Source: a virus
Length of the DNA stretch: 41,620 nt
Direction: 5' to 3' (one strand)
Virus record (IMG/VR): IMGVR_UViG_3300008114_002492
Coordinates: 1-41,620 of that record
A model generated the notes under the pieces. It did no database searches, was not told the origin of the DNA, and saw only the letters and a program-made list of their open reading frames with translations. Position 1 is the stretch's first letter; the number at the start of each line of letters is the position of its first letter. Below, one piece after another: positions 1 to 37,356 of this stretch. The position numbers and the translations under genes are program-made.

Positions 1-14
1 AAATATAAATTAAT

Positions 15-815
15 ATGAAAGTAGACAGAGTAATTTTAGCAACTAATAACAATCCATTATATTATGATTTTTGGAATAATCTTTCTTTTACATACAAGAA
101 AAAATTTGGTATTACACCAACTTTAATATTTTTTGGTACTGAAGAAGAATTATCTGAAATTAATTTATCTAAAGAATATGGTGATATCATAGTACAAGCA
201 CCAGTTCCCAATATTAAACCATGGCAATATACTTGGGGATTGTTTTACTTTACAAAATTTTTTGAAGATGAGGTTTGTGCGATTATGGGAATTGACCAAA
301 TACCTATGGGAACTTATTTTTTGGGTGATGTAATTCAAAATGTACCTGATGAAAATTATGTGATGTTAATTGATGACCAATATAAGTTAGAAGGTAAATC
401 TAAATTTACTTGGAACGAAAATGGTTTTAGTCCATCCGCATATCACATCGCCAAGGGTTCTACTTTTTGGGATGTTTATGATTTTGAGGAAACTTTTGAA
501 GAAGAAATTATGAAACTTGAAAATTCAAATATTGTTACCATGTGGGGTGATAAATGGGGAATGGACGAGGCATACAGTTGTAACAACTTAATGAAATTTA
601 AATATAGAAAAAGAATTTCAGCATTAAGTAAATCTAAAGATTTCTTAAAAAGACGTATTGATTGTTATAGAAACATAGAAGTTCCATACGACACAACTTT
701 ATTAAAAAACAACTATTACATTGAGTGTCATTCTGTAAGACCATATTCTGAACATAAAGAATATCTTGATACTTTATTTAACAACATACCTTATTTCGTT
801 GACAATCATGAATAA
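15..815 (+). CDS. putative nucleotide-sugar glycosyltransferase
   Basis: This 266-residue protein resembles GT-A-type nucleotide-diphospho-sugar transferases. It opens with a beta strand and loop typical of the fold (VILATNNNPLYYDFW), followed by a second strand ending IFFG near residue 40 and a MGIDQIPMG segment near residue 92 that could be the acidic donor-binding region. I see no signal peptide or membrane segment, so it is probably cytoplasmic. It is the first gene of a compact plus-strand cassette of sugar genes, and its stop overlaps the next gene (ATGAATAA). No Shine-Dalgarno site precedes the ATG, which is usual for Bacteroidetes. The family call is by fold-like features only; donor and acceptor are unknown. 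Confidence 0.5.
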   Translation: MKVDRVILATNNNPLYYDFWNNLSFTYKKKFGITPTLIFFGTEEELSEINLSKEYGDIIVQAPVPNIKPWQYTWGLFYFTKFFEDEVCAIMGIDQIPMGTYFLGDVIQNVPDENYVMLIDDQYKLEGKSKFTWNENGFSPSAYHIAKGSTFWDVYDFEETFEEEIMKLENSNIVTMWGDKWGMDEAYSCNNLMKFKYRKRISALSKSKDFLKRRIDCYRNIEVPYDTTLLKNNYYIECHSVRPYSEHKEYLDTLFNNIPYFVDNHE

Positions 816-1593
816 TCTAATACAAATGAACCGATTTTCCGAATTGCATGATGACGAAAGAATTGTCTTTTGTAAAATTGACCATGTTATGGAAGATTTT
901 AGGAGAGTTGCCACATTACCACATAAAGTTGTTATGTTGATAATGAATGGTGATTTTTCATTTACCCCTGAAATATTAAAACATAAACCAAGTAATGTTA
1001 AACATATTTTTGCAACCAATTCAACTGTTTATAACAATATGGTGACACCAATACCAATTGGTGTTGAGAATCAATTTGAACCTAAACGAAAAGGTCATGG
1101 TATGATTAATGATGGTATTTTTGAAAAACTACCGTTTTTGTTGGGTGAACAAACTGTTGAACCTGAATCATTTGAAGATAAACTGTATGCGAATTTTAAT
1201 ATTCAAACAAATTTTTTCTATAGAGATTTAGTAAAACAAATTTGTACAATATCAGATAATGTTAATTTTGAATACGGATTAACATATAAAGATTATGTTA
1301 AACGAATGAAAGAACATTTAGGTGTTGTTTCTCCAACAGGGAATGGATTAGAATGTATTAGAACTTATGAAGCTTTATACCTTGATTGTATTCCTGTTTG
1401 TGTTGGAGACCAAAAAAAATATGAAGCAATATACAATGGGATTTATAAATTTTTACCAATAGTTTTCATATCAAACCCTGGTGATTTAAATAATATCCAA
1501 TTAATAAAATCAGAAATAAACAGAGTTAAAAACAATAGTAAAGAATTGATTGATTACGAATATTGGATTGACCAAATAATGAAAAAAGTCTAA
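808..1593 (+). CDS. exostosin-like (GT47-type) glycosyltransferase
   Basis: A 261-residue protein starting at the ATG that overlaps the previous stop by 8 bp; an upstream in-frame ATG at 766 would overlap that gene by 50 bp and is less likely. Residues 174-199 contain the exostosin/GT47 C-terminal signature ([19 protein letters not shown] followed by CIPVC), where the conserved Glu and Arg line the donor-nucleotide pocket in relatives. The protein is about half the length of full exostosins, so it is a reduced form, probably one GT-B half plus a short N-terminal region. It is likely to transfer a sugar in the same surface-glycan pathway as its neighbours. The specific linkage cannot be read from sequence. 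Confidence 0.6.
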
Positions 1594-1594
1594 A

Positions 1595-2059
1595 ATGAAT
1601 AAAATTTTTATACATAGTACATCTATTGTTGAAACTGAAAAAATTGGTGATGGAACCAAAATTTGGGCTTTTTCACATATATCATCAAATGTAACCATCG
1701 GTAATAATTGTGTGATTGGTGAAGGTGTTCATATCGGTCCAAATGTAGTAATAGGAGACAACTGCAAGATACAAAATCATTCATTACTTTACGATGGTGT
1801 AACATTAGAAGATGATGTGTTTTTAGGACCAAACACCGTAACCACAAATGATTTTATTCCTCAAGTAGGTGGTGATTGGAAAAATTCAGATAGATTTAAA
1901 AAAACTTTATTTAAAAAAGGATGTTCTATTGGTGCCAATTCTACTATTATTTGTGGTATAACAATCGGGGAAAATTCTTTAATTGGAGCTGGTAGTGTTG
2001 TTACCAAAGACATACCATCAGATTCAAAAGCATATGGAAATCCCGCAAAATTAAAATAA
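1595..2059 (+). CDS. WbpD/WlbB-like left-handed beta-helix N-acetyltransferase
   Basis: A 154-residue hexapeptide-repeat acyltransferase. Imperfect [LIV]-G-x4 turns run through residues 20-100 and again at 115-150 (for example [31 protein letters not shown]), forming a left-handed parallel beta-helix trimer in this family. The opening [18 protein letters not shown] closely follows the start of WbpD/WlbB enzymes, which acetylate the 3-amino group of UDP-2-acetamido-3-amino-uronic acids using acetyl-CoA. The ending AYGNPAKLK is the usual family end. It is about 35 residues shorter than bacterial WbpD. The next two genes match the preceding steps (aminotransferase, oxidoreductase) of that pathway, which supports the assignment. 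Confidence 0.75.
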
Positions 2060-2060
2060 T

Positions 2061-2870
2061 ATGCCTGAAATAGTAAGAGAAATATTTGAGAACTATGTCA
2101 AAGAGACATTTGATTTAAAAGATTGTATTGCAGTAAATAATGGAACTAGTGCTCTTATTGCACCATTGTGGTCTATGGATTTTCAAGATGGTGATGAAGT
2201 TATCACAACACCATTTACCTTTATTGCAACAACAAACGCAATTATCATTGCCGGTGCAAAACCTGTATTTGTAGACATTAATCCAAATACATTATTAATT
2301 GATGTTGATAAAATAGAGGAATCAATAACTCCAAAAACAAAGGCCATATTACCAGTCCATCTATACGGTAGAATATGTGATATGGATAGGATTAATGAGA
2401 TATCCAAAAAACACAACTTAGTAGTCATTGAAGATACAAGTCAATCTTTCTCTGCTCAGGACGAACAAAACCGTTTTGCGGGAATGATGAGTGACTGTGG
2501 AACATTTAGTTTTTATAAGACCAAAAATATTTCAACCTTTGAAGGTGGGATGATTTGTATACCTAAAGATTCTAAATTAGATTCTAAAAAAATTAGAAGT
2601 ATCTGTAACCAAGGACAAGATGGGAGATATAATCATGTTCATATTGGTTTTAATTTTAGGTTGGCAGAACCATTGTGTTTAATGGCTTATGAACAAATGA
2701 AATTACATATGACTGGAATTAAATCTGAACTTGGATTAAGAGGTCCAAATCAAGGACATTATCCAAATGTGGTTTACGAACAACCAATTTATAAATCCAA
2801 AGGTATAACAGGAAATTGTCCGATTGCCGAGGAAATTGCAAGAAAAATCAGGAATAATGAAAAAGTATAA
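2061..2870 (+). CDS. DegT/DnrJ/EryC1-family PLP aminotransferase, shortened
   Basis: A sugar aminotransferase of the WbpE/ArnB type. Recognisable elements are NNGTSAL (residues 26-32), TTPFTFIATTNA, Asp125 in IEDTSQ (contacts the PLP ring nitrogen in relatives), and Lys155 in the SFYKTKN motif, the expected Schiff-base lysine. At 269 residues it is about 100 shorter than the family norm: roughly 25 N-terminal residues are missing, and most of the small C-terminal domain is deleted between EQMKLHM (near 215) and the closing PIAEEIARKI. Its end overlaps the next gene by 14 bp. Activity is uncertain because of the deletion. It would transfer an amino group from glutamate to a 3-keto nucleotide sugar. 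Confidence 0.8.
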   Translation: MPEIVREIFENYVKETFDLKDCIAVNNGTSALIAPLWSMDFQDGDEVITTPFTFIATTNAIIIAGAKPVFVDINPNTLLIDVDKIEESITPKTKAILPVHLYGRICDMDRINEISKKHNLVVIEDTSQSFSAQDEQNRFAGMMSDCGTFSFYKTKNISTFEGGMICIPKDSKLDSKKIRSICNQGQDGRYNHVHIGFNFRLAEPLCLMAYEQMKLHMTGIKSELGLRGPNQGHYPNVVYEQPIYKSKGITGNCPIAEEIARKIRNNEKV

Positions 2871-3870
2871 AGTAGGAATTATTGGGTGTGGGGCAATATT
2901 ACCCAGACATTTAGAAGCAATAAATGCCAACCCAAATTTTGAATTAACCGCCCTGTGTGATATTCAAAAAGATTTGGTAGAAAGTCTTTCAAAAAAACAT
3001 AATGTATTACCATATACTGACTACAAAGAAATGGTAATGTCTAAAAATGTGGACTTTGTAACTATCGCAACACCAAACTCACTACACCATGAACAATCAA
3101 TTTTTTCATTAAAAAACGGTTGTGATATTTTAGTTGAGAAACCAGTTTCATTTTCTGTTGAAGAAATTGAAGACATTATTAAAGTATCTAAAAAACACAA
3201 ACAAGAAGTTTTTTGTGTGTTACAAGTAAGATTAAACCCAACAGTTCAATTACTAAAAGAAATCATAAGTAATAATTTATTGGGTGATATTAGAGCAGTA
3301 AATCTTGTTCAAAGATGGCAAAGACCGATTGAATATTTTACAGGGTGGAGGTCAATACCATCAATAGGTGGTGGTACATTATATGAAGTTGGAATACATT
3401 ATTTAGATGTGTTTCAATATGTCTTTGGAAAACCAAAAGTCCACAGTTCAAAAGTTTATAGCGCCAAACATACCTCAGTTGATATTGAAGATACAATATA
3501 TTCAATTTTTGATTTTAATACTTTTGGTGGAACTTGTGAAATAACAATTGCCGCAGAACCAAGAAACCTTGAATGTTCATTATCTATTTTAGGTGCCAAT
3601 GGATTTGTCAAAATTGGTGGAAAGGCGTTAAATATTGTTGAATCTGCGAATTTTTTATCTCATGGGTCTCAAACAGAATTTGATAAAATTAGAAAAAAAT
3701 ATAAAATATCTAATGAACCAAATAACTATGGTTCATATGAAGGTTCTTGTCCTAATCACCCATTTGTTTACCAAAATTTAAATGAATTTAAAATGGAAGA
3801 ATCAATTAATGTTATTTCGTTAATTGATGAGATATATGAAAAATCAAATATAAAATATAGAATAAAATAA
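2857..3870 (+). CDS. Gfo/Idh/MocA-family oxidoreductase (WbpB/WlbA-like)
   Basis: A 337-residue NAD(P)-dependent dehydrogenase. The Rossmann motif GIIGCGAI lies at residues 7-14, the family EKP motif at 94-96, and the second-domain active-site stretch GGGTLYEVGIHYLD at 171-184 with His181. The ATG at 2857 follows an AGGAAT purine stretch and starts MKKYK; a start at 2824 would add 11 residues inside the aminotransferase and lacks sense. WbpB/WlbA enzymes oxidise C3 of a UDP-GlcNAc uronic acid to give the aminotransferase substrate, which fits the gene order here. Other Gfo/Idh sugar dehydrogenases cannot be excluded from sequence alone. Confidence 0.82.
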   Translation: MKKYKVGIIGCGAILPRHLEAINANPNFELTALCDIQKDLVESLSKKHNVLPYTDYKEMVMSKNVDFVTIATPNSLHHEQSIFSLKNGCDILVEKPVSFSVEEIEDIIKVSKKHKQEVFCVLQVRLNPTVQLLKEIISNNLLGDIRAVNLVQRWQRPIEYFTGWRSIPSIGGGTLYEVGIHYLDVFQYVFGKPKVHSSKVYSAKHTSVDIEDTIYSIFDFNTFGGTCEITIAAEPRNLECSLSILGANGFVKIGGKALNIVESANFLSHGSQTEFDKIRKKYKISNEPNNYGSYEGSCPNHPFVYQNLNEFKMEESINVISLIDEIYEKSNIKYRIK

Positions 3871-3875
3871 AAGGT

Positions 3876-4478
3876 ATGGGAGCTCAATTTGGAATAGACG
3901 ACCTAATATTAAAAAATTTAGGAAATGATAAAATTTTTGTTGAGGCTGGTGGGTCTCATCCTGATGACCAAAATAACACATCATTATTAGAAAAATTTGG
4001 GTGGAGTGGTCTAATTGTTGAACCAAAATTACTTTATAATGATTTGTACAAAAAAACAAGACCTAAAACAATTGTTGAAAATTACGTACTTGTACCTAAC
4101 GAATATAACAATGATACCATAGATGGTGATTTTAGTCATTATATGATGGGAGGTGTTGTAAATATACATAATTTAGATTGGAACCCTAAACCTCATAACG
4201 CAATACAATTGTCTAAATTATTAAAAAAACATAATTTAACTGAAGTACATTTTATGAGTTTAGATGTTGAAGGTTATGAAGAACAGGTTTTAAAAGGTGT
4301 TAATTTTGATGAAGTTTTTTTTCACGTTATTGATGTTGAAAATCATGGTCAAATAGGGGTAGTTCAAGACTTTTCATTTTTAAATGATTTTGGTTTTGAA
4401 AAAGTTGGTGTAGTTGAAAACTCACATGAAATTTATATAAACAAAAACAGTCCTTTTAAAGAAACTTTTGTTTTTTAA
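3876..4478 (+). CDS. FkbM-family SAM-dependent methyltransferase
   Basis: A 200-residue methyltransferase. The SAM-binding motif I is FVEAGGSHPDD (residues 21-31), an acidic residue ends the second strand (LIVEP, Glu49), and the FkbM motif FMSLDVEGYEEQVLKG covers 126-141. FkbM enzymes O-methylate sugars or polyketides; here a sugar substrate is likely because it sits inside a glycan cassette, 5 bp after the oxidoreductase gene. O-methylation often caps or disguises a glycan. No membrane segment is visible. The length fits a compact FkbM domain with no added domain. Confidence 0.8.
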   Translation: MGAQFGIDDLILKNLGNDKIFVEAGGSHPDDQNNTSLLEKFGWSGLIVEPKLLYNDLYKKTRPKTIVENYVLVPNEYNNDTIDGDFSHYMMGGVVNIHNLDWNPKPHNAIQLSKLLKKHNLTEVHFMSLDVEGYEEQVLKGVNFDEVFFHVIDVENHGQIGVVQDFSFLNDFGFEKVGVVENSHEIYINKNSPFKETFVF

Positions 4479-4501
4479 CATAGTTGGTTTTAGTCATCAA
4501 T

Positions 4502-5248
4502 ATGGTTACATTAGAGTATAATGGTAGATTAGGTAATAGTTTAATACAATATGTAACTTCATTATTTTTTGCAAAAAAATTTAATTTACAATTTAAAAAC
4601 CCACCATTTTGTAATTCTGACAATTGGGGTCTTTTAATTAAAGAACCACAAATAGATGGACTGGTTGGTAAAGAAAACAAAAAAGTCAATGATGATAATT
4701 TTATGGAATTATTTGATACTGACACAACAAATCCATACCATTACCACTTTAATGGGTTTTTTCAAAAAAAAGAATTTTTTACAAAATACGAATTTGAAAT
4801 AAAATCTTTATTAAATATAAATCATAAAAGTATTAATGAAGATTTGGTTTTTGTTCATTATAGAATTGGTGACATTGAAGGAGATAAAAGAATGTTACCT
4901 TTAGAATATTACATTGAGGCTTTAGAAACCACAAAATTTAATGGTGGTTATATTGCTTCGGATTCACTAAACCATAATCATTGTCTATATTTAATTAACA
5001 AATATAAATTAAAACCTATTCAGGGACTATCACCAATTAATACGATATATTTAGGAAAAAATTTTAATAATTTGATTTTATCTGAAGGAACTTTTTCATG
5101 GTGGATTGGGTTTTTAAGTAGAGCTGAAAACATAATTTCTAACAAACGAGACTTTATGTGGCATGGTGATATTTTTTTAGATAGATGGAAAAAACTATAT
5201 TGGGATTATAATGATAAAACACCAATTAATTTAAAAAATAATATATGA
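4502..5248 (+). CDS. GT11-like (alpha-1,2-fucosyltransferase type) glycosyltransferase
   Basis: A 248-residue protein with motifs in the order of family GT11: NGRLGNSLIQY at residues 7-17 (family GRLGNQxFQY), VHYRIGDIEGDK near 118-129 (family HxRRGDY; here HYRIGD), LPLEYYIEAL near 132-141, and SEGTFSWWIGFLSRA near 194-208. GT11 enzymes use GDP-fucose. The HxRRGD motif is altered (first Arg to Tyr-Arg spacing HYRIGD), so donor specificity may differ. I use the ATG at 4502 because the GT11 motif begins almost at once; a TTG at 4484 would add six residues. It overlaps the next gene by 4 bp (ATGA), which suggests translational coupling. Confidence 0.68.
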   Translation: MVTLEYNGRLGNSLIQYVTSLFFAKKFNLQFKNPPFCNSDNWGLLIKEPQIDGLVGKENKKVNDDNFMELFDTDTTNPYHYHFNGFFQKKEFFTKYEFEIKSLLNINHKSINEDLVFVHYRIGDIEGDKRMLPLEYYIEALETTKFNGGYIASDSLNHNHCLYLINKYKLKPIQGLSPINTIYLGKNFNNLILSEGTFSWWIGFLSRAENIISNKRDFMWHGDIFLDRWKKLYWDYNDKTPINLKNNI

Positions 5249-6303
5249 ATATTGGTATAATTGGAATTGGTAATTTAGGTCTAAATTTATTAAATTTTTT
5301 ATCTGAACAAAAACATGAAATTTATGTTTCAGACGTTGATGGTGATAATGTTGAAGTTATTAAAAACTCTGATGTTATTTTTTGTTGTGTAGATACAAAT
5401 ATTTTACCATCAAATTTTTTGGATATAAAAAATGTAATGAATGTTGTTGAAGATTTTGGTGTCTCATTTGAAAATGAAGTACCATTATATGACAAAATTT
5501 TTGTAATCTGTTCTACTTTAAATCCTGGTGACACAAAACAAATATCGGAAATTTTAAATCCGATGAATTTAAGTATTTGTTATCTCCCTTTAATTGTTAA
5601 TTCAGATAACACATTATCATTAGAAACTTTAGTAATTGGTACTATTGATTCACACATTGTTAACACAATCTCAGATATATTTCAACCACATCAAGACAAA
5701 AAAATAAATGTAGTATCTATGACAAGTAAATCTGCCGAAATATATAGGTTGGCATATAGTTCTTACATTTATTATAAAATAAATTTTGCAAATTTTTTAG
5801 GTGAACTAATGTTAAATTTTGGTACATCAGATGAAACAAAATTACTTCTTAAAAGTTTAGGATATGACAAATCAATCGCCGAACAAAACTTTAATTTTGG
5901 ATTTGGTGTTGGTGGACCTTGGATACCAACGGAAAATAGAGTTTTTGGTCAAGTTGCAAATGGTAATAAATTAGATTTTGTATTACCATTTGTTAATGAT
6001 GATTTTAATCTTAATCATAATGAGTTTATAAAAAATCATTTTATAAAAACTAATCCCGATAAAACACAACCATTTGTCATATCAGGTATTGGGTATAAGG
6101 ATAATTCAATTAGTATTAAAGAATCTTCTAAACTTGAATTAGTATATGGTTTATTAAAAGAAGGTTATACTGTGTTTATTATTGAAAGTGATGAGTTTAT
6201 TAAAAATGTAAAAGTTGTTAAAGAATTAGTTTTTGACTTTGGTGAAAAAGTAAAGTTCTTTAAAAAGGGTACATCGCCCAAAGGAGTATACATTAATTTT
6301 TAA
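5245..6303 (+). CDS. UDP-glucose/GDP-mannose dehydrogenase homologue lacking catalytic residues
   Basis: A 352-residue protein with the layout of nucleotide-sugar 6-dehydrogenases: Rossmann motif IGIIGIGNLGLNLL (3-16), CSTLNPGDT (89-97) matching the STxPPGT element, the central helix with AEIYRLAYSS (164-173), and GFGVGGPWIP (219-228) matching GFGFGGSCFP. The key residues are changed: the catalytic Cys is Trp226, the Lys of ExxK is Arg168, the following Asn is Ser172 and the Asp four residues after Cys is Glu230. It is also about 50-80 residues shorter than active enzymes. It therefore probably does not oxidise C6 in the usual way. It may bind nucleotide sugar, act as a partner, or catalyse a Cys-free reaction. 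It is the last gene of the sugar cassette. Confidence 0.72.
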   Translation: MNIGIIGIGNLGLNLLNFLSEQKHEIYVSDVDGDNVEVIKNSDVIFCCVDTNILPSNFLDIKNVMNVVEDFGVSFENEVPLYDKIFVICSTLNPGDTKQISEILNPMNLSICYLPLIVNSDNTLSLETLVIGTIDSHIVNTISDIFQPHQDKKINVVSMTSKSAEIYRLAYSSYIYYKINFANFLGELMLNFGTSDETKLLLKSLGYDKSIAEQNFNFGFGVGGPWIPTENRVFGQVANGNKLDFVLPFVNDDFNLNHNEFIKNHFIKTNPDKTQPFVISGIGYKDNSISIKESSKLELVYGLLKEGYTVFIIESDEFIKNVKVVKELVFDFGEKVKFFKKGTSPKGVYINF

Positions 6304-6340
6304 TGTTTCTTTTATTATTATATTTCATAAATTATAAGTA

Positions 6341-7093
6341 ATGGAAAAAAAACCAAGAAAAAAACCAAGCGTTACCTCTAAAACAACAGCGTTTAGCGGG
6401 GAAACCAGAATTACACCTAAATCAAAAAAAGAAATTATTGCTTCTGTAATTTCAAAACCAACAAAAGAAAAATTTTTAACTGAAAATCAAAGATTATATT
6501 ATGATTTATTACAAAAAAATCAAATAATTGTATGTTCAGGTCCAGCTGGTGTTGGTAAAAGTTATATTGCAATGAAAGCTGCTGTGGATTTACTTGCAGA
6601 CCCAACAACTCCTTATGAAAAAATCATTATTGTTAGACCCGCAGTTGAAGCTGAAGAAAAACTTGGAGCGTTACCAGGTAATGTTGAAGAAAAATTAGAC
6701 CCATATATTTTCCCATCTTACTATCTATTAAATAAAATAATAGGTAAAGATAAAAGAGAATATTTAAAAAATATTGAAGCTATTGAAGTTTTTGCATTAG
6801 CCTATATGAGAGGTATGAACATTGACAATTCAATCTTAATTTTTGAAGAAGCACAAAACTGTACACCAAAACAAATGAAACTTTTATTAACTAGAATTGG
6901 TTTTAAAAGTAAATTCTTTATTTCAGGTGATTTAGAACAAACTGACAGATATAAAGATAAAACACATTCTGGATTGTGGGATGCAATTGATAAATTTAAA
7001 AATGTTAATGATATTGGTGTTTTTGAATTTAACGACAAAGATATTGTTAGAAATCCATTAATTTCACAAATTTTAAGTAAATACGAAGAATGA
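6341..7093 (+). CDS. phoH: PhoH-like ATPase
   Basis: A 250-residue protein of the PhoH/phosphate-starvation ATPase family, common in large phages. Walker A is GPAGVGKS (residues 67-74), followed by IIVRPAVEAEEKLGALPG (96-113), and Walker B is LIFEEAQNCTPKQMK (166-180), with Glu where most members have Asp (DEAQN). SGDLEQTD near 195-202 is the family sensor region. The first 40 residues are lysine-rich and probably disordered. The gene follows the sugar cassette after 37 bp and overlaps the next gene by 4 bp. PhoH relatives hydrolyse ATP and some act on RNA; the phage role is not established. Confidence 0.9.
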   Translation: MEKKPRKKPSVTSKTTAFSGETRITPKSKKEIIASVISKPTKEKFLTENQRLYYDLLQKNQIIVCSGPAGVGKSYIAMKAAVDLLADPTTPYEKIIIVRPAVEAEEKLGALPGNVEEKLDPYIFPSYYLLNKIIGKDKREYLKNIEAIEVFALAYMRGMNIDNSILIFEEAQNCTPKQMKLLLTRIGFKSKFFISGDLEQTDRYKDKTHSGLWDAIDKFKNVNDIGVFEFNDKDIVRNPLISQILSKYEE

Positions 7094-17636: not shown

Positions 17637-17876
17637 ATGAAAAATACTAAAAATACTGAAGAAATATTAAAAAAAACACAAGAAATTATTGGTTCTCTTT
17701 TTGACACAATACATTACACATCAAATGAACAATTAAATTCATTTATTGATGGTATGAATGAAGAACAAGCAATGTATTGTTTAAAACAAGCATTAATTGC
17801 CTGTCACGTTAGAGGTGCATTTACAATGGAAGAAACCGAAGCAGTTTCAAAGTCTTTAAGAATTTTAAATTCTTAA
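17637..17876 (+). CDS. small hypothetical protein
   Basis: A 79-residue, probably all-helical protein ([20 protein letters not shown] and [20 protein letters not shown]) with two cysteines. No family recognised. It is a lone plus-strand gene between two minus-strand genes; its stop shares bases with the stop of the convergent Thr/Pro-repeat gene. The divergent 49-bp gap to the gene at 17587 must hold its promoter, but I see no clear TAnnTTTG there. Its good coding quality supports a real gene. Confidence 0.55.
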
Positions 17877-18883
17877 GATGTTGGTGTAGGTGTTGGTGTC
17901 TCAGTTGGAGTTTGAGTAGGAGTATCCGTTACCGTAGGTGTTGGTGTATTAGTTGGTGTTTGAGTAGGAGTATCCGTTACCGTAGGTGTTGGTGTATTAG
18001 TTGGTGTTTCACTAATAGTTGGTGTTGGTGTTTGAGTAGGAGTATCCGTTACCGTAGGTGTTGGTGTATTAGTTGGTGTTTCACTAATAGTTGGTGTTGG
18101 TGTCTCAGTTGGAGTTTGAGTAGGAGTATCCGTTACCGTAGGTGTTGGTGTATTAGTTGGTGTTTGAGTAGGAGTATCCGTTATTGTGGCCGTTGGTGTG
18201 TTAGTAGGAGTTTCAGTCACTGTTGGTGTAACCGTATTAGTAGGTGTTATTGTGGGTGTAGGTGTAGGTGTTGGAGTTCTTGTCGCCGTTGGTGTTGGTG
18301 CGGGACACGACTCAATTAATATTATATTACCTGAACCATTTGTTTGAAATACAGTGTTACCTGGTAATCCACCAGAATCTGAAAGATATGTTGCAAAAAT
18401 TGGTGTTGTAAAACTACTATTCAAGTATATTGTTGTTCCTGTAGTCCAAAAACCAATAGCAACATTACTATAATATGTTTGAAGACTTGGACTTGAACAA
18501 GCATCTAATGATGTTGTACCGCTAGATAATGATGTAATTGTAAACACAGGTCTAGTTGGTGTTGGTGTAATTGTAGATGTTATAGTTGGAGTTGGTGTTA
18601 AACTTGATGTTACACTTGGTGTTGGAGTTGCTCCATAACTTGGAGTAACAGATGCTGTAATACTTGGAGTTGGAGTTACTGGTGGTGGCCAATCAATTGT
18701 TGAAAGAATTTGAATACTTTTAGATGCTGTCGAATAAGTACCGTCAATATACCATACATTAATAGTTTCATTTTCTAATACTTCGTGATTATTTATATTT
18801 AAATTATCCGAACATCTAGTATAATTAATAACACCAATAGATGTTATTGAGTTATTTTTTATTATTGATTTTTTACAAGCCAT
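17873..18883 (-). CDS. Thr/Pro-repeat virion-type protein
   Basis: A 336-residue protein. Residues 1-70 form a small domain (begins [14 protein letters not shown]); residues 72-110 and 195-336 are Thr-Pro arrays with Ser, Val, Glu, Asp and Asn (for example [14 protein letters not shown]); between them (111-192) is a second folded domain with two cysteines (DACSSPSLQ and ESCPAPTP). The C-terminus consists wholly of repeat. Such arrays form stiff extended stalks and are common O-glycan acceptors. It has a TATTTAT box and follows the capsid gene after a terminator. The DNA repeat unit is about 48 bp. I infer a surface-exposed fibre or decoration protein. Confidence 0.6.
17877..18300. repeat. tandem coding repeats (about 48-bp unit)
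   Basis: Four near-identical copies of a core beginning GTATCCGTTACCGTAGGTG start near 17922, 17970, 18042 and 18126, with a decayed copy near 18174. Units are separated by interchangeable shorter TPT-coding blocks, the pattern expected from slippage or recombination in a Thr/Pro-repeat gene. Confidence 0.8.
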
Positions 18884-32824: not shown

Positions 32825-33724
32825 TTAAGAGTTTAGTCCATTAAATCCACCAAGGGCAACTGAGTCTACTTGAACTACAGACCTTCCTTGTGCGTTTGAA
32901 TATATTGCGTGTGGTAATGCTTGTGTATATGTGTTACCTGAACATGTAATACAATCTTCATATACTATAGTTCCACTTTGTGTATTTGTTGTTCCACCTG
33001 TTAACGCAAAACCACTAGGTGTGATTGTTGGTGTTATACTTGGTGTTGGTGTTATTGTTGATGTAACCGTAGGGGTTACAGTTCTTGTTGGGGTAATACT
33101 TGGTGTTGGAGTAACAGTTGGTGTTCTTGTTAATGTTGGTGTTACTGTTGGTGTAGCACTTGGTGATATAGTAATACTTGGGGTAATACTTGGGGTAATA
33201 CTTGGTGTTGGTGTTAACGTTCTAGTTGGTGTTAACGTTGGAGTAATACTTGGAGTAATACTTGGTGTTGGTGTTAACGTTCTAGTTGGAGTGACAGTTG
33301 GAGTAACAGTTCTAGTTGGAGTAACAGTTGGTGTTCTTGTTACTGTTGGTGTTATAGTTGATGTTGGAGTAACAGTTGGTGTTCTCGTTACTGTTGGTGT
33401 TACCGTACTTGTTGGTGTAGGAGTTGGTGTTACAGGTGTTCTTGTAGGAGTTGGTGTTACGGTCTGTGTTGGAGTTGGCGTTGGTGTAGGATTTGCCGAT
33501 AAACAAGTTGCACAATCATTATAATCAACAGATTGTGTTAAAACTTTATCAATACCTGTTGCTGGCTCTGCGTTATCTATTATATCATAACATCCTGGTG
33601 TGGATGCTCCTGTGAATGTTAAATAGTAATTACCATTAACTGCAGGTAATGATGCACTATCAAAATCAACGAGTATTGATGCTCCGCCACCACAAGGACC
33701 TATTAAATATGTTACTAATGCCAT
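32825..33724 (-). CDS. second Thr/Pro-repeat virion-type protein
   Basis: A 299-residue protein starting [14 protein letters not shown]. Residues 1-75 are a small domain with four cysteines (paired as CGGG, GCYD, NDCATC), 78-235 are a Thr/Pro/Val/Ser/Arg array ([18 protein letters not shown] and variants), and 236-299 are a C-terminal domain with a CITC pair. So the array is a stalk between two folded ends, unlike the protein at 17873 whose stalk is terminal. The ATG at 33724 follows a TATTTAT box; the longer frame to 33748 crosses that box. A surface fibre or decoration role is likely by analogy. Confidence 0.6.
33020..33490. repeat. degenerate coding repeats (Thr/Pro stalk)
   Basis: Low-complexity GTTGGTGTT-type DNA made of short 6- to 36-bp blocks, including two near copies of a block that reads GTTAACGTTCTAGTTGGTG on the plus strand. 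It encodes the Thr/Pro stalk and is a likely site of length variation. Confidence 0.75.
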
Positions 33725-33735
33725 AATTTTACTAT

Positions 33736-33742
33736 ATAAATA
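33736..33742 (-). promoter_or_regulatory. TATTTAT box, candidate late promoter
   Basis: TATTTATATAG on the minus strand, 11 nt before the start at 33724. Confidence 0.45.
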
Positions 33743-33766
33743 TAGCAATAATGGTAAATTGTTAAA

Positions 33767-35361: not shown

Positions 35362-37356
35362 ATGATTGAATCAATGGATAACACAGAAGGTAAGTCAACA
35401 CCTAAAAAGAAATCAGGAGGAACTCCTGTATTGGACAATTTCAGTAAGGACTTAATCAAAATGGCTCAAGAGGGTAAATTGGACCCTGTTATTGGTCGTG
35501 AGATGGAAATTAACCGAATTGCTCAAATCCTTTCTCGTAGAAAGAAAAACAACCCAATTATCATTGGTGAACCTGGTTGTGGTAAAACCGCAATTGTTGA
35601 AGGTTTGGCAATGAAAATCTTTAACGGGGATTGTCCTCGTAACTTACGTGATAAACGTATTGTATTATTGGATTTAACATCCATCGTTGCCGGTACAAAG
35701 TATCGTGGTCAATTTGAAGAACGTATGAAAGTTATTATTGAAGAACTTTCAGAAAATCCTGACATTGTAATTTTCATTGATGAAATCCATACAATTGTTG
35801 GAGCTGGTAATTCTTCAGGTTCAATGGACGCATCCAACATCTTTAAACCAGCACTTGCTCGTGGTGAAATCCAATGTATCGGAGCAACCACTTTGGATGA
35901 GTATCGTACCAACTTTGAAAAAGACGGAGCCCTTGAGCGTCGTTTCCAAAAAGTTGTTGTTGACTCTCCAAATAAAGCTGAGACTTTAACAATCATTACA
36001 AATGTTAAAGACAAGTATGAAGAATACCATAAGGTTAGTTATTCTGAAGAAGTATTGGAATTGTGTGTGAACTTGGCTGACCGTTACATCACTGACCGTG
36101 AGTTTCCTGACAAAGCATTTGATATTATGGATGAAGTTGGTGCCCGTTCTCAAGTGGATACCAAAATCCCTGAATCCTTGGAGATTCTAAAACAAAAAGC
36201 TTCAGAACTTAAACAACAAAAACTTGATGTTGTTAAAAGACAAGACTTTGAACACGCAGCTGAACTACGTGATAAAGAGAAAAAACTTCTTGAACGTTTG
36301 GAACTTGAAAAGGCGAAGTTTGAAAAAGAACAATCTGAAAATCGCAAACCGATTGACCCAGAATTGGTCTTGAATGTAGTTTCGTCAATGACAAAGATTC
36401 CTGTCAACAAATTAAATGTTGATGATAAGATGGCTTTGGTTGGAATGGAAAAAACTTTGATTTCCGAAGTTGTAGGTCAGGATGATGCGGTGTCAAAGAT
36501 TTCAAAATCTATCCGTAGAAACCGTTTGGGTATTAAAGACCCAAATAAACCAATCGGTTCGTTTATCTTCTTGGGTTCAACAGGTGTAGGTAAAACCCAC
36601 TTGGCAAAACAATTGGCTAAACAAATCTTTGGTAGTTCAGATGCACTTATCCGTGTGGATATGAGTGAGTACCAAGAGAAACATACCATCTCTCGTTTGA
36701 TTGGTTCCCCTCCAGGTTACGTGGGTTATGAAGAAGGTGGACAGTTGACCGAACAGGTTAAGAACAAACCTTACTCTGTAATCTTGTTTGATGAGGTTGA
36801 AAAAGCAAACAAAGAAATCTTCCACACACTTCTTCAGATGTTGGATGAAGGTCACCTTACAGATTCTTTGGGTAGAAAAATTAACTTCAAGAATTGTTTG
36901 ATTATTATGACATCAAACATTGGGGTTAAAAAACTTCAAGACTTTGGAACAGGTATCGGTTTTTCAAGTAACGCTTATTCTAACGAAGAACAGAAAAAAG
37001 AAATCTTGAAAAAAGAAATGAAGAATTATTTCTCTCCTGAGTTCTTGAACCGTATTGATGATGTGATTGTGTTTAATTCTTTGAACGAAGAATCTATCAA
37101 AAAGATTGTTGACATTGAATTAAAGAAATTAATGGGTCGTTTGTCAGAGTTGAAACTTATTTTCAAGTATGACGACAAATTAGTTTCACACATTGCCAAG
37201 ATTGGTTATGATGAATTATATGGAGCTCGTCCTATCAAAAGAGCAATTCAGGACCAAATTGAAGATTTGATATCTGAAGAAGTCCTAAACGGAAATGTGG
37301 TTGAGAGTAAACAATATTCCCTATCGGTAAAATCTGAGAAGGTAATCATCAAATAA
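35362..37356 (+). CDS. clpC: ClpC-like AAA+ unfoldase without N-domain
   Basis: A 664-residue Hsp100 ATPase. D1 has Walker A GEPGCGKT (69-76), pore loop KYRG (113-116) and Walker B IFIDEIH (137-143). The middle domain has a UVR-like motif (LKQQKLDVVKRQDFEHAAEL, 283-302). D2 has GSTGVGKT (405-412), pore GYVG (452-455) and FDEVE (476-480). GTGIGF (529-534) fits the ClpP-docking loop (I/L/V-G-F), so it should work with host ClpP. The first 20 residues are a short basic tail; the about 150-residue N-domain that binds adaptors in ClpC is absent. D2 ends with YGARPIKRAIQDQIEDLIS. Host-type promoter and an operator-like repeat pair lie upstream; a terminator follows. Confidence 0.9.
   Translation: MIESMDNTEGKSTPKKKSGGTPVLDNFSKDLIKMAQEGKLDPVIGREMEINRIAQILSRRKKNNPIIIGEPGCGKTAIVEGLAMKIFNGDCPRNLRDKRIVLLDLTSIVAGTKYRGQFEERMKVIIEELSENPDIVIFIDEIHTIVGAGNSSGSMDASNIFKPALARGEIQCIGATTLDEYRTNFEKDGALERRFQKVVVDSPNKAETLTIITNVKDKYEEYHKVSYSEEVLELCVNLADRYITDREFPDKAFDIMDEVGARSQVDTKIPESLEILKQKASELKQQKLDVVKRQDFEHAAELRDKEKKLLERLELEKAKFEKEQSENRKPIDPELVLNVVSSMTKIPVNKLNVDDKMALVGMEKTLISEVVGQDDAVSKISKSIRRNRLGIKDPNKPIGSFIFLGSTGVGKTHLAKQLAKQIFGSSDALIRVDMSEYQEKHTISRLIGSPPGYVGYEEGGQLTEQVKNKPYSVILFDEVEKANKEIFHTLLQMLDEGHLTDSLGRKINFKNCLIIMTSNIGVKKLQDFGTGIGFSSNAYSNEEQKKEILKKEMKNYFSPEFLNRIDDVIVFNSLNEESIKKIVDIELKKLMGRLSELKLIFKYDDKLVSHIAKIGYDELYGARPIKRAIQDQIEDLISEEVLNGNVVESKQYSLSVKSEKVIIK

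Follow-up and report, generated by a model that had tools for sequence, protein, structure and literature searches.

Our analysis of the IMG/VR record IMGVR_UViG_3300008114_002492, a stretch of 41,620 bases from an uncultured T4-like phage that is referred to here in its entirety as the window, revealed a cassette of sugar genes on the forward strand that probably makes a rare 3-amino sugar from one that is common in cells. At its core lie three adjacent genes encoding a WlbB/WbpD-like hexapeptide N-acetyltransferase (AcT; positions 1595 to 2059), a compact sugar aminotransferase of the DegT family that we regard as a putative 3-aminotransferase (mini-AmT; 2061 to 2870) and a Gfo/Idh dehydrogenase that appears to be a WlbA-like UDP-sugar 3-dehydrogenase (2857 to 3870). 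The mini-AmT is a conserved form found almost only in phages, and the homologue of UDP-glucose dehydrogenase (UGD) located farther downstream (5245 to 6303) lacks the catalytic cysteine.

Results

The record was recognized as T4-like by its terminase, for which the nearest named isolates are Flavobacterium phages (immuto; approximately 29%). The window is a fragment of the phage genome, and the record-wide negative results reported below cover that fragment only. Between positions 15 and 6303, the forward open reading frames encode two glycosyltransferase-like proteins, AcT, mini-AmT, the Gfo/Idh dehydrogenase, an FkbM-type methyltransferase, another glycosyltransferase and the UGD homologue, followed by a PhoH-like protein. 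A preliminary description of this DNA had reported the order acetyltransferase, aminotransferase, Gfo/Idh oxidoreductase and, later, a nucleotide-sugar dehydrogenase homologue, and this order was confirmed, as the four forward frames match the Pfam families hexapeptide (E value of 9.5e-31), DegT (5.1e-73), Gfo/Idh (3e-26) and UDPG_MGDP_dh (approximately 3e-7). The same description equated the four genes with the enzyme set of UDP-2,3-diacetamido-uronic acid synthesis; the first three are compatible with Wbp/Wlb-type steps, while the fourth cannot be retained because of the missing cysteine. A second contig (L002/L019) carries the same genes in the same order at 97 to 100% identity, and since Gfo/Idh genes and acetyl- or formyltransferase genes also recur near the short aminotransferase in most of 42 loci, the arrangement reflects neither chance nor an assembly error.

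The mini-AmT consists of 269 amino acids, compared with approximately 365 in WbpE-type enzymes, and approximately 110 residues are gone in three blocks, of about 36 residues at the N terminus, 48 within the C-terminal domain and 25 at the end, so that the full two-domain DegT architecture of approximately 360 residues is not present. Alignment with WbpE-type enzymes showed that D125, Q128, K155, N198, R200, HYP at residues 233 to 235 and Q241 are kept. Lys155 (codon at 2523 to 2525) aligns with the lysine of the SFFPSK motif of WbpE and is expected to form the Schiff base with pyridoxal phosphate (PLP), and the His-Tyr-Pro...Gln motif at residues 233 to 241 (2757 to 2783), which aligns with xHYPxPLxxQPA of WbpE, is what persists of the C-terminal domain. 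We ruled out that the short form is a pseudogene or an assembly error, since it recurs in the second contig and in full length in more than 40 relatives, and the missing domains cannot be encoded next door because there is no room for them (AcT ends at 2059, mini-AmT starts at 2061 and the Gfo/Idh ATG is at 2857).

An AlphaFold2 (AF2) model of mini-AmT based on 16 relatives reached a pLDDT of 80.7 and a pTM of 0.84, and a Foldseek search with this model retrieved GDP-perosamine synthase and WbpE with TMq values of 0.7 to 0.8. In phmmer, perosamine synthase scored 163 bits and WbpE 144 bits. Assignment by the top match or by NCBIfam was discarded as not discriminating, as the perosamine, WbpE, PseC and LegC models score alike. 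In phylogenetic trees, the mini forms constitute one clade (support of 100/100) that sits on a long stem outside the WbpE clade and whose next neighbors are weakly resolved.

In nearly all of 48 viral contigs, the short form aligns over almost the entire query. No full-length match was found in 50,697 isolate phage records, which yielded partial matches, with less than 45% identity among the matches listed, and a structure search of BFVD returned larger proteins or partial matches only. Among 1,024 genomes sampled from three bacterial phyla, a full-length mini-AmT occurred in just 3 metagenome-assembled genomes (MAGs), and one of the MAG contigs that carry it (L083) shows phage gene order. In another MAG, LL2.bin32, a pair of mini-AmT and Gfo/Idh genes lies between MenH-like and MenB-like genes (L081:3541-8554) in surroundings that resemble a menaquinone operon, the Men names being given by sequence reading. 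We also observed a second, still shorter DegT-like family of approximately 200 residues in phage sugar loci (L034:9659-10252 and L003:10347-10988).

The mini-AmT is recurrently accompanied by the same partner genes. Of 42 nonredundant loci, 33 have a Gfo/Idh gene no more than 5 kb away, 15 of them with a WlbA-like member (cluster c5) and 18 with a member of a second clade (c2); within the same distance, AcT was present in 16 loci, a formyltransferase-like gene (PF00551) in 14, and either of the two in 25. All 42 loci were gathered via their aminotransferase and without a random-position control, and the counts therefore describe recurrence rather than tested enrichment. One c2 member (L114) scored 207 bits against the UDP-GlcNAc 3-dehydrogenase model NF040723, whose cut-off is 450, and another gave no match, so that this clade can be called GnnA-like only provisionally.

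The Gfo/Idh gene likely starts at the ATG at 2857 rather than at the TTG at 2824. Its product matched best the PDB entries 3q2i (130 bits) and 3q2k (121 bits), which we take to be the WlbA enzymes of C. violaceum and B. pertussis, followed by a glucuronide 3-dehydrogenase (97 bits), while WbpB scored 64 bits. The paper on these WlbA enzymes is cited in PMC10622841. Between the phage protein and WlbA, 44 alignment columns are invariant, including a W-x-R-P-x-x-Y...W-R signature as well as K95 and H181, which correspond to the EKP lysine and the HYxD histidine of WlbA/WbpB-type enzymes. In the tree, the window protein belongs to a phage clade of its own that is placed, relative to the second phage clade, toward WlbA, although the join is weakly supported, and its best NCBIfam match is NF040723 at 118 bits, below the cut-off of 450.

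Among nine plasmid homologues of the Gfo/Idh protein, five lie in operons of the type 6-dehydrogenase/Gfo/(acyltransferase)/DegT, in Lawsonia, Massilia, Diaphorobacter, Sphingomonas and Agrobacterium, with no acyltransferase annotated in the Sphingomonas operon; the remaining ones comprise a DegT-Gfo pair in Parabacteroides and other contexts in Riemerella, Azospirillum and Cetobacterium. Since the Lawsonia Gfo matches 3q2i with 497 bits and the Agrobacterium DegT matches WbpE with 427 bits, these plasmid operons are valid references. AcT matched best a WxcM-like protein (4mzu; 127 bits) and an acetyltransferase of lipopolysaccharide (LPS) biosynthesis (3mqg; 122 bits), and it is 42 to 55% identical to the acyltransferases of four Wlb operons, with the Lawsonia enzyme at 55%. 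Collectively, PDB matches, cellular operon context and invariant columns support the assignment of the Gfo/Idh and AcT proteins as Wlb-like. The relatedness to Wbp/Wlb enzymes that had been proposed for the set is thus supported for these two, and mini-AmT forms a separate compact clade.

The UGD homologue carries the motif GGPWIPTE, in contrast to GG(S/H/P)C(F/L)P(K/R)D in working enzymes, with Trp226 (TGG at 5920 to 5922) at the position of the catalytic cysteine of UDP-sugar 6-dehydrogenases. The variant GGPW(I/V)PTE is shared by the window and its relatives L009, L013 and L015, and the change is fixed at 81 to 94% identity under purifying selection, whereas homologues from cyanophages and other phages retain the cysteine. 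As the gene remains beside phoH in relatives with quite different cassettes, it belongs to the conserved backbone and not to the cassette. For both reasons, we rejected its role as WbpA, the first step of the pathway, and with it the earlier assumption that the nucleotide-sugar dehydrogenase is a pathway enzyme; the purifying selection suggests that the protein probably has some function other than that of a 6-dehydrogenase. A UDPG_MGDP_dh gene is carried by six other mini-AmT records, the cysteine having been checked in only part of them, and it is intact in the aligned members of cluster c4. This cluster (L087:9008-9853 and others) comprises phage UDP-sugar dehydrogenases of approximately 280 residues that keep the cysteine and in which the C-terminal UDP-binding domain is absent. 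The WbpI-like epimerase that was proposed to be sought elsewhere in the genome was not found with PF02350 in any of 21 viral records (the window and 20 related ones), while the same search was positive in 11 of 14 control genomes.

Comparison with L002 revealed 27 synonymous and 8 nonsynonymous changes in mini-AmT, 8 and 1 in the Gfo/Idh gene and 13 and 4 in the UGD homologue. The ratio of nonsynonymous to synonymous change (pN/pS) was 0.03 to 0.09 for the compared cassette genes with the exception of AcT, which had 3 changes only; it amounted to 0.07 for mini-AmT and to 0.03 for the second glycosyltransferase-like gene (against L002), and to 0.08 to 0.20 for the UGD homologue. The recurrent linkage, the retention of motifs and this strong purifying selection favor functional phage sugar genes.

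The cassette is preceded by the two glycosyltransferase-like genes. The product of the first (GTa; 15 to 815) had no match in Pfam or PDB sequence searches; its AF2 model (pLDDT of 93.4) has a GT-A fold and was most similar in Foldseek to UDP-sugar transferases of the GT6/GT8 type (TMq of approximately 0.5, E value of 8e-6), which hints weakly at a UDP-linked donor. In related phages, GTa often adjoins the Gfo/acetyltransferase pair. The second (GTb; 811 to 1593) may be an exostosin-like glycosyltransferase, as its C terminus resembles RXYLT1_C below the Pfam cut-off, and it likely starts at the in-frame ATG near 811, although the listed frame starts at the TTG at 766. Downstream of the Gfo/Idh gene lie the FkbM-type methyltransferase (3876 to 4478; Pfam Methyltransf_21, E value of 1.2e-8) and a glycosyltransferase (4484 to 5248; PHROG 2644, E value of 5e-10) that is possibly a GT11 fucosyltransferase-like protein, judging solely by an HxRxGD-like motif.

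The PhoH-like ATPase, named by sequence resemblance (6341 to 7093, forward strand), constitutes the conserved right flank of a variable sugar slot and occurs at 75 to 97% identity in many relatives with differing cassettes. The slot is hypervariable and extends from the dUTPase/glycosyltransferase side to phoH in the window (1 to 6340) and in L006, L009, L013 and L015; according to names given by sequence reading, its contents in related phages include sugar dehydratase-like, FdtA-like, PhyH-like and DegT proteins. Elsewhere in the window, two proteins encoded on the reverse strand (17873 to 18883 and 32825 to 33748) contain long Thr/Pro repeats (TPTPT) and had been put forward in the preliminary description as possible glycosylation targets, and the forward strand encodes a ClpA/ClpC-like AAA+ ATPase of 664 residues (35362 to 37356), likewise named by sequence reading.

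Discussion

From the computed family membership, motifs, selection and linkage, we infer the substrates, the order of reactions and the product of the cassette. We give an even chance to the following account as a whole, in which the phage provides the enzymes for oxidizing C3 of a UDP-N-acetylglucosamine (UDP-GlcNAc)-type sugar from the host, transaminating it and N-acetylating the product. The host would supply UDP-GlcNAc or its uronic acid, UDP-GlcNAcA, the latter being needed for the acidic product. The WlbA-like Gfo/Idh enzyme would oxidize C3 in an NAD-dependent manner, the mini-AmT, which has lost much of the C-terminal domain and kept the active-site motifs, would transaminate C3 using PLP, and the WlbB-like hexapeptide enzyme would then N-acetylate the amino group, most likely yielding gluco-configured UDP-2,3-diacetamido-2,3-dideoxy-glucuronic acid. 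One of the glycosyltransferases (GTa, GTb or the GT11-like protein) may transfer the sugar, which the FkbM-type enzyme possibly methylates, with a virion protein or the host surface as the putative acceptor. We are somewhat less confident in a broader proposal, namely that mini-AmT is a working aminotransferase without much of its C-terminal domain, that it forms with the 3-dehydrogenase a mobile two-gene module for 3-amino sugars with interchangeable acetyl- and formyltransferases, and that the cysteine-less UGD homologue is a repurposed dehydrogenase.

The closest known systems are WbpB-WbpE-WbpD of P. aeruginosa and WlbA-WlbC-WlbB of B. pertussis (for the logic of UDP-ManNAc3NAcA-type pathways, see PMC10622841). 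The same three enzyme families are adjacent in the phage, the solved structures nearest to its Gfo/Idh and AcT proteins are those of WlbA and WlbB-type enzymes, and cellular Gfo homologues lie in such operons. However, the window holds no working WbpA and no WbpI, the first and the last enzyme of the pathway, the aminotransferase of the phage is shorter and falls outside the WbpE clade, and its gene order is AcT-AmT-Gfo.

Several observations weigh against the acidic, Wlb-type route. Phage-encoded synthesis of UDP-GlcNAcA is absent from the window record, the Gfo/Idh protein is about 30% identical to WlbA, and the mini-AmT model is of low confidence at residues 153 to 159, which hold Lys155, as well as at 186 to 196 and 215 to 226. 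Several relatives carry Gfo and AcT genes without any DegT gene in the whole record, one of 353 kb, and therefore either the host supplies this activity or the genes have another use. Finally, a clade of mini-AmT with perosamine synthase was not rejected in a better-posed approximately unbiased (AU) test (p-AU of 0.3); in the first AU test, which held mini-AmT with WbpE, omitted Par_AmT and 7b0d and yielded a rejection that we did not use, the value for this grouping was 0.109. That this clade was not rejected, together with the slightly higher phmmer score to perosamine synthase, fits the idea that the cassette acts on another nucleotide sugar or sugar phosphate, through 4-amination as in perosamine synthesis or NtdC/NtdA chemistry of the kanosamine type, and that the Wbp likeness is at the level of families only. 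GDP-perosamine synthase (3bn1/3dr7) is indeed the best Foldseek and phmmer match of the mini-AmT core; it is, however, a full-length enzyme that acts on C4 of a GDP-sugar, whereas segments at the N terminus, in the interior and at the C terminus are missing from mini-AmT. We consider this idea unlikely, as a Gfo/Idh partner suggests a route via 3-oxidation, AcT is a near relative of WlbB and the cassette contains no 4,6-dehydratase, although L009 and L015, which have other cassettes, seem to contain one.

A stronger contender, if clearly less probable than the acidic route, is that UDP-GlcNAc itself serves as the substrate of the three enzymes, which would yield the neutral UDP-2,3-diacetamido-2,3-dideoxy-glucose with no C6 oxidation, so that no 6-dehydrogenase is needed. 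This would agree with the lack of a working 6-dehydrogenase in the window, the NF040723 matches of the window Gfo and of one member of the second Gfo clade, which pairs with mini-AmT in other phages, and the MAG in which the mini-AmT and Gfo pair stands alone in an apparent menaquinone operon. GnnA and GnnB (PMC7663294), which form UDP-GlcNAc3N for lipid A, likewise combine a Gfo/Idh 3-dehydrogenase with a DegT enzyme, and a GnnA-like Gfo lies beside mini-AmT in some other phages; the window cassette differs from that system in that it contains an N-acetyltransferase and that genes for lipid A were not seen in it. In the tree, however, the window Gfo groups toward WlbA and away from the second phage clade, its best PDB match is WlbA, and the six mini-AmT records with UDPG_MGDP_dh genes, with the cysteine intact in the aligned c4 members, also speak for the acidic route. 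That the UGD homologue is a working WbpA-like enzyme with another nucleophile, so that the phage itself would encode the conversion of UDP-GlcNAc into the acid, is highly improbable: the gene is intact and conserved, with both Lys and Asn of its KxxFAN motif still in place, but the cysteine is replaced by Trp, the Asp of the PKD motif is altered, and the gene is kept in L009, L013 and L015 without Gfo, AcT or mini-AmT in the fetched region. Equally improbable is that the cassette represents stuffer DNA or decaying remnants with mini-AmT and the UGD homologue as broken enzymes. Such an explanation was raised for the LPS genes of T4-like cyanophages, some of them near phoH (PMC3037559), and both proteins do miss parts of the normal sequence of their families, but it is contradicted by the low pN/pS values, by the full length of mini-AmT across more than 40 contigs and by the fixation of the Cys-to-Trp change under purifying selection.

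Variable sugar genes, some near phoH, and a UDP-glucose 6-dehydrogenase have been reported in T4-like cyanophages and pelagimyophages (PMC3037559, PMC7029224), and the main texts of both papers do not mention an aminotransferase. A comparison of T4-like cyanophages from 2010 did not decide between functional LPS genes and stuffer DNA (PMC3037559), whereas the authors of the pelagimyophage study favor a change of the host surface (PMC7029224). Virion glycosylation is known in mycobacteriophages, according to work cited in PMC12619734. In the literature, which was covered in part and leaves novelty unproven, we did not find a description of this family of compact aminotransferases, of the 3-dehydrogenases that recurrently accompany it or of the cysteine-less UGD homologue.

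The cassette thus points to one definable chemistry among phage sugar genes, carried by three small proteins. The Cys-to-Trp change in the UGD homologue cautions against equating phage "UDP-glucose dehydrogenase" annotations with the synthesis of uronic acids. If mini-AmT proves to be active, a working DegT enzyme of 269 amino acids would alter the view of the minimal fold in the large family of sugar aminotransferases.

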